DNA from: Lysobacter sp. TY2-98
GTDB lineage: Bacteria > Pseudomonadota > Gammaproteobacteria > Xanthomonadales > Xanthomonadaceae
Direction: 5' to 3'
Length of the DNA: 64,000 nt
Assembly (NCBI RefSeq): GCF_003367355.1
Contig: NZ_CP031413.1
Coordinates: 1,406,921 to 1,470,920, forward strand
This document shows, piece by piece, positions 36,306 to 40,506 of the stretch (the stretch's first letter is position 1; the number at the start of each line of letters is the position of its first letter). A program made the position numbers and the translations under genes. A model generated the notes under the pieces. It saw only the letters and a program-made list of their open reading frames with translations, searched no databases and was not told where the DNA came from.

Positions 36306-36707
36306 ATGTCCCGTTCGCTCAAGACCCCCGCCCTCGCCGCCGTCGCCGGCTCGCTGCTGCTCGCCGGCACCGCCTTCGCGTCCACGCCGCTGTCGCAGGG
36401 CTACATGCTGTCCGCCGCCGATGCCCCCGCGAAGACCGACGCCAAGGCGGCGGAAGCCAAGTGCGGTGCCGACAAGGCGAAGGCCGGCGAAGCCAAGTGC
36501 GGCGCCGACACCGCCAAGGCCAGCGAAATGAAGTGCGGTGCCGACAAGAAGGCCGCGGAAGCCAAGTGCGGCGCCGACAAGAAGGCCGGCGCGGCCAAGC
36601 CGGACGCCGCGGCACCGAAGGCGCAGACCGTCGCCGACAAGAAGGTGGCCGACGCCAAGATGGCCGAAGGCAAGTGCGGCGAAGGCAAGTGCGGCGGCTC
36701 GATCTGA
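36306..36707 (+). CDS. hvfA: HvfA/bufferin-type RiPP metallophore precursor with repeated KCGAD motifs
   Basis: A 133-aa exported low-complexity precursor. The Sec signal peptide ends at GTAFA (residue 25). The mature part carries six cysteines (residues 53, 65, 77, 88, 124, 129). The last two form the [11 protein letters not shown] tail that defines HvfA-type precursors; the first four lie in KCGAD units repeating every 11-12 residues. In known systems an MNIO enzyme converts such Cys motifs into oxazolone/thioamide or thiooxazole groups that bind copper. A GAGG site precedes the ATG. The maturation genes hvfB and hvfC follow directly. Confidence 0.85.
36450..36594 (+). repeat. In-frame tandem repeats inside hvfA
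   Basis: Four copies of a unit encoding A/E-x-KCGAD-x3-KA, with Cys codons at 36462, 36498, 36534 and 36567, so periods of 36, 36 and 33 bases. The repeats are coding and in frame, which allows copy number to change by recombination without breaking the gene. Confidence 0.85.
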
Positions 36708-36717
36708 TCCAGCGGTA

Positions 36718-37584
36718 ATGGCCGCAGCCCGCCCTCTCGCTGCGAATGCTGCCGGCCTCGGCCTGCGGCGGGCCCTTCTGGGTCCGCTGCAGGCGGCCTC
36801 CGACGACACCGTCGACTTCATCGAAGTCGCGCCGGAGAACTGGATGGGTGTTGGTGGTGCATCGGGCGATGCGTTCGACGCCGTCGCGTCACGCTGGCCC
36901 GTCATCTGCCACGGGTTGTCGTTGTCCCTGGGCGGCCCGGGCGAGCTCGACGAAACGTTCCTCGCCAAGCTGCGACGTTTCCTCGACCGGCTCGGCAGTC
37001 CGATCTACAGCGAACACCTTTCGGCCTGCACCGACGCGCGCGGCCAGCTCTACGACCTGATGCCGCTGCCATTCCACCGCGCCGCGGTCGATCACGTCGC
37101 CGCCCGCATCCGGCGCACGCAGGACATCCTGGGCCGCCGTATCGCCGTCGAGAACATTTCCTACTACGCGACGCTCGACACCGGCGACGCGGCGGCCATG
37201 CGCGAAATCGACTTCATCAACAACGTCCTCGAACGGGCCGACTGCGACCTGCTGCTCGACGTCAACAACATCGTCGTCAACGCGACCAATCACCGCTACG
37301 ACGCGCACGAATTTCTCGCCGCGCTTCCCGGCGAACGCGTCGCCTACATCCACGTCGCCGGCCATTACGACGAGGCCGACGACCTCAAGGTCGACACGCA
37401 TGGCACGCCGGTGAGCGCGCCAGTGTGGGAGCTGCTCGACGCCGCCTATGCACGCTTTGGTCCACGACCGACGCTGCTGGAGCGCGACTTCAACCTGCCG
37501 CCATTCGATGAACTGCTCGTCGAACTTGGCGGCGTGCGCAGCCGTCTCGCGCAGGCAACGCGCGGGCGACGCGATGCCGCCTGA
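36718..37584 (+). CDS. hvfB: HvfB-type MNIO (DUF692) multinuclear iron oxidase
   Basis: A TIM-barrel non-haem iron enzyme of 288 aa that modifies cysteines in the HvfA precursor. Metal-ligand motifs of the DUF692 family appear in order: [58 protein letters not shown] and DTHGTPV, ending with LLERDFNLP. It starts ten bases after hvfA and overlaps hvfC by 11 bases. The ribosome binding site is weak, so it may be coupled to hvfA translation. Confidence 0.92.
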
Positions 37585-38329
37585 GGCCTTCGACGCGCTG
37601 GCGGCGCTCGGCGCGTACGTGCGCGATCCCGATCATGCTGCCGCGCCCGCGGGTGTCGAAGCGCGGCGCCTGAAGATCTACGCCGAGCTCGTCTTCAACA
37701 ACGTCGAGTCGCTGCTCGCCGGGACCTTCCCGGTGATGCGGGCGACGCTCGGCGACGGCGTCTGGCTGGCTCTTGTCCGCGACTTCCTGCGCGAACACGA
37801 CGCGCGCACGCCGGTGTTCACCGAACTGCCGCGCGAACTGATGCGCTACCTCGATGCGCGCGCCGACGCCGGCCGCGATGATCCGCCTTGGCTGCGCGAG
37901 CTCGCGCACTACGAATGGGTGGAGCTCGCGCTGCAGATCAGCGACGAAACGCCCGCCGGCATTGCGCATGATCCCCAAGGCGATCTGCGCACCGGCGTGC
38001 CACTGCTGTCGCCGCTCGCGTGGCCGCTCGCCTACGACTGGCCGGTGCAGCGCATCGCGCCGGGCGCGATTCCCGATACGCCCGAATCCACGCTGCTGCT
38101 CGTGCATCGCCGCGACGACGGCTCCGTCGGTTTCCACACGCTGAGCCCGCTCGCCTTCCACCTGCTACATCGCCTGCCGGAGTCGAATGTCTCCGGCGAA
38201 TCGCTGCTGCGTTCGCTCGCGCACGATGTCGGCGCGCCCGACGTCGACGCCTTCATCGAGGCCGGGCTCGCACTGCTCGAGACCTACCGTCGGGACGGCA
38301 TCGTCCTGGGCGCGCGTATCGCCAGCTGA
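37574..38329 (+). CDS. hvfC: HvfC-type (DUF2063) partner protein for precursor recognition
   Basis: A 251-aa protein with an N-terminal DUF2063 domain ([21 protein letters not shown], then [17 protein letters not shown]) and a C-terminal winged region ([15 protein letters not shown]). In characterised operons this protein recruits the precursor to the MNIO enzyme. Its ATG at 37574 lies within the end of hvfB, implying coupled translation. Length is normal for the family. Confidence 0.9.
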
Positions 38330-39026: not shown

Positions 39027-39779
39027 TCACAGCGACAGCGTGCCTGCCGCCATCGGCTTGGACGACGGCACCTGCGGGGCGACCGGCTGCACCGGTTCCA
39101 TCGTGATCGCGATCGTCCACTTCGACGTCATGCCGGCATGCAGTTCGGCCTTCGGCACGTCGACCCAATGCGATTTCCACGCGCCGACGTAGCCGAGCGC
39201 CTTCGGCTTCTGGCCCGGCGCGATCAACCACAGCACCGGCGCCATGCCGTCCTCATCCATCGCGCCCGGTACAGGCACCAGCCACATGCCGCCGCCGTGC
39301 ATGTCGACCGTGGCGAGATAGGCGAGCTGGCCGTCGTTCTTCACCAGGCGCGTGACCGGCATTTCCGGCATCGGCGTGACCGCCTTGGGTGTTGCAGCAA
39401 CCGGCGTGGATGGCGGGGTCGAACGCGGCACCTGCAGCATGACGACGGCGAGTGCGGCAGCGGTCGCGAAACCGGCCGCCGTCGCCGCCTTCCAGAGGCC
39501 GACACGCGGTGTCGAAGCACGCTCGATCGAAGCCCAACCCAGGCGCGTGCGGATGCGCGGCCAGACATGCGTCGGCACGGCGTCCTTCGGCAATTCGTCG
39601 TGCAGCGGCTCGAGGCGCCGCGCCCAGTCGTCGATCAGGCGCGCGAAGGCGGGATCGTGCGATGCGCGCAGGCGGGCTTCGCGGCGCGCGTGCGCATCGA
39701 GCACGCCGAGGACGTACTCGCCGGCGAGCAGGTCGGCGGACGGCGGATCGCGGTCGAGATCGTGTTCGCGCATGGTCAT
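39027..39779 (-). CDS. Anti-sigma factor, RskA/anti-sigma-K type
   Basis: Membrane-anchored 250-aa protein. The N-terminal cytoplasmic part (LLAGEYVLGVLDAHARREAR and RRLEPLHDELP) is the sigma-binding region. A single transmembrane helix lies near residues 92-112 (LWKAATAAGFATAAALAVVM). The periplasmic C-terminal domain resembles RskA (MWLVPVPGAMDEDGMAPVLW). The start at 39779 overlaps the sigma factor stop (ATGA), a normal arrangement for such a pair. It should hold the adjacent ECF sigma factor inactive until signalled. Confidence 0.88.
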   Translation of the reverse strand: MTMREHDLDRDPPSADLLAGEYVLGVLDAHARREARLRASHDPAFARLIDDWARRLEPLHDELPKDAVPTHVWPRIRTRLGWASIERASTPRVGLWKAATAAGFATAAALAVVMLQVPRSTPPSTPVAATPKAVTPMPEMPVTRLVKNDGQLAYLATVDMHGGGMWLVPVPGAMDEDGMAPVLWLIAPGQKPKALGYVGAWKSHWVDVPKAELHAGMTSKWTIAITMEPVQPVAPQVPSSKPMAAGTLSL

Positions 39780-40336
39780 TGCTCCAGGCACGCGCGCAGC
39801 TGCAGCAGGCCGCGTCGGATCCAGCTCTTCACCGATCCCAGCGGCGCGCCGGAGCGCGTCGCCAGCTCTTCGTAGGTCGCGCCGTCGAAAAACGCAGTGC
39901 GGATCAGTCCGCGACGGCGTTCGTCGAGCCGCTGCATGCAGCGCTGCAGGCGTTCGCGATCGTCCGAGGCTAGCGCCGCGTCGATCGGCGTCTCGCCGTG
40001 GTCCGGCAGTTCCTCACCCAACTCGATCGCCGTGGTGCGCACGGTGTGACCCGGCGAACGCAGGCGGTCGATGCAGCGGTTGCGGGCGATCATCGCCATC
40101 CACGCCATCGCACTCGCGCGCGACGGGTCGAATTGTTCCGCCTTGTGCCAGATCGCGGCGAAGACTTCCTGCAGCACGTCCTCGGCCTCCGCGCGGTCCG
40201 GTAGCAGTCGCAGGCAGATCGCGAACAGACGCGACGACGCGGCGCGGTAGAGGCGTTCGAACGCGTCGCGGTCGCCCTGCGCGACGTCCAGCAGCAGGTC
40301 GACGTGCACGTCCGTGTCGCTCGCGACGGTGAGCAT
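39776..40336 (-). CDS. ECF RNA polymerase sigma factor
   Basis: A 186-aa group IV sigma factor. Region 2 is visible in FERLYRAASSRLFAICLRLL and DRAEAEDVLQEVFAAIWHKA. Region 4 contains ERRRGLIRTAFFDGATYEE and GAPLGSVKSWIRRGLLQLR. It is a SigK/RpoE-like factor controlled by the overlapping RskA-type anti-sigma factor. The start at 40336 has GAGG five bases upstream and gives a normal N-terminus; the ORF is open further upstream. Targets are not evident; the HvfABC operon lies 1.4 kb away. Confidence 0.9.
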   Translation of the reverse strand: MLTVASDTDVHVDLLLDVAQGDRDAFERLYRAASSRLFAICLRLLPDRAEAEDVLQEVFAAIWHKAEQFDPSRASAMAWMAMIARNRCIDRLRSPGHTVRTTAIELGEELPDHGETPIDAALASDDRERLQRCMQRLDERRRGLIRTAFFDGATYEELATRSGAPLGSVKSWIRRGLLQLRACLEQ

Positions 40337-40506
40337 GGGGGCCTCGCGGAATCCGGGATAGGCGATGACGGTCACTGCGTCCCTCGATCGATGTCGGGGC
40401 CGGAGCGTTATGCCACCCGCGTCCAGCCCCCGCAAGCGCGCCGGAATGGCGCATATACGGGGCGACTACGGACGGAAGTGGCGGACGGATGCACTGTCCG
40501 TCGACC

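Follow-up and report, generated by a model that had tools for sequence, protein, structure and literature searches.

A Lysobacter HvfABC locus whose precursor carries mostly single KCG sites is probably an ordinary member of the HvfA/oxazolin class

Several described systems modify the cysteines of KCG-containing precursor peptides, and the number of sites differs among them. The prototype HvfA of Haemophilus influenzae has three 11-residue paired motifs whose six cysteines are all modified (PMC13419390), fontiphorin has seven sites (PMC12668002), the Microbulbifer precursors have five to eight cysteines (PMC12538549), and in Buf_EGKCG/oxazolin precursors the cysteine count is highly variable, reaching 58 (PMC12452194). 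For fontiphorin, mass spectrometry and NMR of a 14-residue fragment, FonA67-80, assigned a 5-thiooxazole to both its EAKCG and its EGKCG site (PMC12668002). According to the same source, only arginine at position 1 blocked the FonBC reaction among the non-proline variants at positions 1 and 2; AKCGA, which is among the common natural motifs, was modified at one of two sites; a single-repeat peptide was left unmodified; and the E6A variant, with alanine for the glutamate behind the first unit, showed lower turnover. An Arg-Arg and an Asp-Phe motif of FonB are tied there to substrate choice and catalysis. A Microbulbifer MmrA cassette left with one cysteine still underwent modification, losing 4H (PMC12538549). 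Searching the literature for MNIO and words beginning with EAKCG returned no paper; the fontiphorin paper has the site within the 14-residue sequence.

We analysed a 64,000-nucleotide stretch of the Lysobacter sp. TY2-98 genome (the window), in which three adjacent plus-strand genes, hvfA, hvfB and hvfC, occupy positions 36306-38329 (Table 1). hvfA and hvfB are separated by 10 bases, and hvfB and hvfC overlap by 11 bases; the hvfC start at 37448 in the open reading frame list is probably too early, as 37574 matches the family profile. A scan for an hvfA promoter and terminator gave nothing convincing.

Table 1. Genes and repeat arrays of the hvfABC locus (window coordinates).
Feature	Position	Strand	Evidence
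hvfA, precursor peptide, 133 aa	36306..36707	+	NF050137, sequence, alignment with relatives
hvfB, MNIO-family (formerly DUF692) peptide maturase, 288 aa	36718..37584	+	NF003818, PF05114, 3bww, motifs
hvfC, DUF2063 / RRE partner protein, 251 aa	37574..38329	+	NF050145, PF09836 + PF22106, 3dee
Tandem array encoding four KCGAD units, period ~36 bp, 4.5 copies	36444..36599	+	Tandem Repeats Finder, motif positions
15-bp tandem repeat encoding the 10-residue paired tail	36665..36696	+	Tandem Repeats Finder

The earlier note had read these genes as an HvfABC-type metallophore operon, and NCBIfam matches for all three proteins bear this out. HvfA passed the family domain model NF050137 (KCGExKCG_twice; E 8.9e-14, 50.9 bits, cut-off 19.5). 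Against NF050188, the strict HvfA equivalog and a narrow, Haemophilus-like prototype model, residues 7-92 aligned with 37.6 bits, under the cut-off of 95. Because the family domain model was passed and NF050188 was not, we assign the protein to the HvfA family without calling it an equivalog of its Haemophilus counterpart. HvfB passed the 'HvfB family' model NF003818 (396 bits, cut-off 360) and fell short of the BufB model (271 bits, cut-off 310); it matched PF05114 with an E value of 4e-98, and its closest solved structure is the MNIO 3bww (E 1e-70). HvfC passed NF050145 (267 bits, cut-off 142) and was above the cut-offs of both PF09836 and PF22106, and its closest solved structure is the partner protein 3dee (E 5.9e-7). 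HvfB has Arg17-Arg18 near its N-end and Asp257-Phe258 near its C-end, which we matched to FonB by motif and not by alignment; among 80 relatives, Arg-Arg occurs in 75 and Asp-Phe in all. The genome has one MNIO gene, and its two KCG-model matches both lie inside this one precursor. The enzyme and its partner protein are of the standard type, and in anatomy, family membership and conservation the locus is of an ordinary, known kind.

The 133-residue precursor contains six cysteines, at positions 53, 65, 77, 88, 124 and 129. Its open reading frame and motif positions confirmed the earlier description of four KCGAD units at 11-12 residue spacing followed by a tail: the units hold Cys53, Cys65, Cys77 and Cys88 (spacing 12, 12 and 11), and the tail, a 10-residue pair within an 11-residue stretch, holds Cys124 and Cys129. 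Three units read EAKCGAD and one EMKCGAD, each being the E-x-K-C-G 5-mer of the family with AD behind it. When the mature part was shuffled 100,000 times, KCGAD never occurred more than once, and the DNA forms a tandem array of ~36 bp, which excludes a chance origin of the four units. At the N-end is a putative Sec-type signal peptide (LLLAGTAFA), with a basic start, a hydrophobic core and an AFA cleavage-like site, and this stretch aligns with relatives and is conserved. HvfA also has a conserved LSQGYML motif. Right behind the putative signal peptide lies an L-x-x-G-Y motif (window 36390-36410, residues 29-35), in which Leu29, Gly32 and Tyr33 are invariant in an alignment of 20 precursors; this stretch is a candidate HvfC recognition site. 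AlphaFold2 with 20 sequences gave a mean pLDDT of 46 and no fold, an uninformative model, and the precursor is probably disordered.

The operon is flanked upstream by phoU and downstream by an RNase T-family exonuclease gene (rnt), an order common to L. terrigena and most Lysobacter loci. We found no adjacent DoxX gene (hvfX) in the hvfABC operon of the window, the next gene being the exonuclease; the sole DoxX match in the genome sits elsewhere (G000:C1:1944076). In some relatives hvfC and rnt are separated by a DoxX gene (L014:5693-6349 and L019:5631-6284). hvfX was apparently lost in the lineage of the window, and an adjacent DoxX gene does not strictly define the class, as the fontiphorin cluster is described with three genes only (PMC12668002). 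Just beyond the rnt-like gene, on the minus strand, are an RskA-type anti-sigma factor (39027-39791) and an ECF-type sigma factor (39776-40435); we rejected this pair as part of the cluster, as just 3 of the 80 relative loci have it beside hvfABC, although some of the 80 end before that position. Of 395 sampled genomes from the host's family, 288 encode HvfB, spanning 47 of 54 genera; within the same genus, neither hvfB nor a KCG precursor is present in two of eight genomes.

The earlier note had further claimed that the usual HvfA precursors carry only EGKCG tail motifs, so that this one would be expanded and, with all six cysteines modified, have a higher copper capacity. The first claim is wrong, as the prototype has six EGKCG cysteines. 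The second is not supported: six cysteines are no expansion because the H. influenzae prototype likewise has six modified cysteines (PMC13419390). Among 83 distinct precursors taken from beside HvfB and its relatives, with the HvfA of the window included, the number ranges from 3 to 13 with a median of 8, and six is ordinary for the family. That a larger precursor was selected in Lysobacter sp. TY2-98 for higher copper capacity is very improbable: in its favour, KCGAD occurs four times here and twice in the sister species, but six is the prototype number and lies below the relatives' median, and the nearest relatives hold 4, 6, 6, 8 and 8 cysteines, which therefore looks like drift in repeat number.

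The KCGAD count does vary among relatives. The closest, L. terrigena (HvfB 89-90% identical), has two KCGAD units and four cysteines, and an in-frame difference of 17 codons in hvfA accounts for the change. Between the two species, hvfA (dN 0.092, dS 0.593, dN/dS ~0.15) and hvfB (dN 0.057, dS 0.589, dN/dS ~0.10) are under purifying selection. In L. segetis the four units are mixed (KCGAD, KCGAD, KCGAA and SCGAD). L. lacus has three units, whereas single and tandem units are mixed in both L. bugurensis and an uncultured Lysobacter, with eight cysteines. In some isolated units the lysine before the cysteine is replaced by serine, threonine or other residues, and Cys-Gly is retained. This pattern fits selection on the cysteines with a drifting repeat number.

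KCGAD itself is no second motif. Behind the last cysteine of 287 internal cassettes in the 83 precursors, GAD is the commonest text (78 cases; GGD, 51), which makes it the normal linker behind a KCG site, and the sole difference between the units and EGKCG is at position 2, where glycine is replaced by alanine or methionine. The units most likely receive the same modification as EGKCG, judging by fontiphorin. The proposal of the earlier note that one chain bears two kinds of modification found no support: a second modification is unneeded because the EAKCG site of fontiphorin has already been shown to yield 5-thiooxazole, the same product as from EGKCG (PMC12668002). A 5-thiooxazole in the tail with another MNIO product at the KCGAD units is hardly credible; the superfamily makes several products, and both position 2 and the residue behind CG set the units apart from the tail, but the only MNIO of the genome has HvfB-type motifs, the operon has no other tailoring gene, and the products of characterised MNIO-PME1 pairs are all 5-thiooxazoles as reported in the fontiphorin paper (PMC12668002).

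We consider it improbable, though less so, that only the tandem tail is converted to 5-thiooxazole, leaving the four KCGAD cysteines as free thiols that serve as low-affinity copper ligands or spacer. The inactivity of FonBC on a one-repeat peptide and its slower turnover with alanine behind the first unit point that way (PMC12668002), as do the serine and threonine substitutions before the cysteine in isolated units of relatives. Against it, FonBC still modified the AKCGA substrate once, the one-cysteine MmrA cassette still loses 4H (PMC12538549), every EGKCG/EAKCG site is modified in the prototype and in fontiphorin (PMC13419390, PMC12668002), and the cysteine and glycine of the units are kept while adjacent residues change. 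Even if all sites share one modification, the isolated ones could be modified poorly, because FonBC fails on a single repeat and the E6A variant turns over more slowly.

The predominance of single sites is the one mildly distinctive feature of this precursor. Four of its six sites are unpaired and spaced 11-12 residues apart instead of forming tandem pairs. At least one unpaired site occurs in 53 of the 83 precursors, and the pattern recurs in several other lineages, since 8 of the 83, among them Lysobacter, Chromatiales and Oceanospirillales relatives, have at least four. We regard as a tentative and rather doubtful reading that this is a lineage-specific captophorin with mostly isolated sites (one KCG per 11-12 residues), so that its HvfBC would have to act on single sites, although FonBC needed two, and copper would be bound between distant sites or chains. 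Four relatives (L025, L033, L059 and L102) have precursors with repeated EGSCG or QGSCG units, with serine for the lysine before the cysteine, at 10-12 residue spacing; we found no report of SCG-site modification in the portions of the literature on these peptides that we consulted. In many Xanthomonadaceae relatives (L010, L013, L021, L029 and others) the KCG cassettes are interrupted by an EF-hand-like insertion.

We conclude that the locus very probably belongs to the ordinary HvfA/oxazolin (Buf_EGKCG, 'captophorin') class. By analogy with its published relatives, HvfB and its partner HvfC would oxidise the cysteine of each E-x-K-C-G 5-mer to 5-thiooxazole in the cytoplasm, and the modified HvfA would then be exported by Sec into the periplasm, where the thiooxazole thiols may bind copper, buffering or sequestering it. 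Each KCGAD unit would be a single-site EGKCG cassette, with alanine or methionine for the glycine at position 2, followed by the usual A-D-K linker of the family, and the number of units may drift as copies of the tandem repeat are gained and lost in frame. The locus is of little significance in itself, as its chemistry, gene set and repeat variation have been described already; it could be of modest use for asking whether HvfB/HvfC enzymes need tandem sites, as part of a natural substrate series in which the single EAKCG sites of close relatives number two, four or more.

Compared with known systems, the locus shares with HvfABC/oxazolin of H. influenzae the gene content hvfA-hvfB-hvfC, the six KCG cysteines, the HvfB and HvfC families and, putatively, the Sec signal, but the prototype has three pairs where this precursor has one pair and four single EAKCG/EMKCG units, and its operon includes a DoxX gene (hvfX), whereas none adjoins here (PMC13419390). 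Fontiphorin (FonABC) of Fontimonas thermophila, among published systems the nearest to this one, is also encoded by a minimal cluster without DoxX and likewise combines EAKCG with EGKCG sites, modified there to 5-thiooxazole; its seven sites fall into LysC fragments of two or three, whereas those here are mostly single and 11-12 residues apart (PMC12668002). Buf_EGKCG/oxazolin precursors resemble this one in their repeated KCG motifs, adjacent MNIO and DUF2063 genes and, putatively, a signal peptide, and differ in their repeats from the one-site, 11-12 residue repeats of this HvfA (PMC12452194). Bulbicupramide (MmrABC) of Microbulbifer has an MNIO and a DUF2063 protein in common with this locus, but its cassettes have two cysteines each, unlike those here (PMC12538549). 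The syntenic orthologues of L. terrigena (L002/L083) and L. segetis (L004/L085) have the same EMKCGAD/EAKCGAD single units and the 13-residue tail and differ in the number and make-up of the units, with four cysteines in the former and six in the latter.
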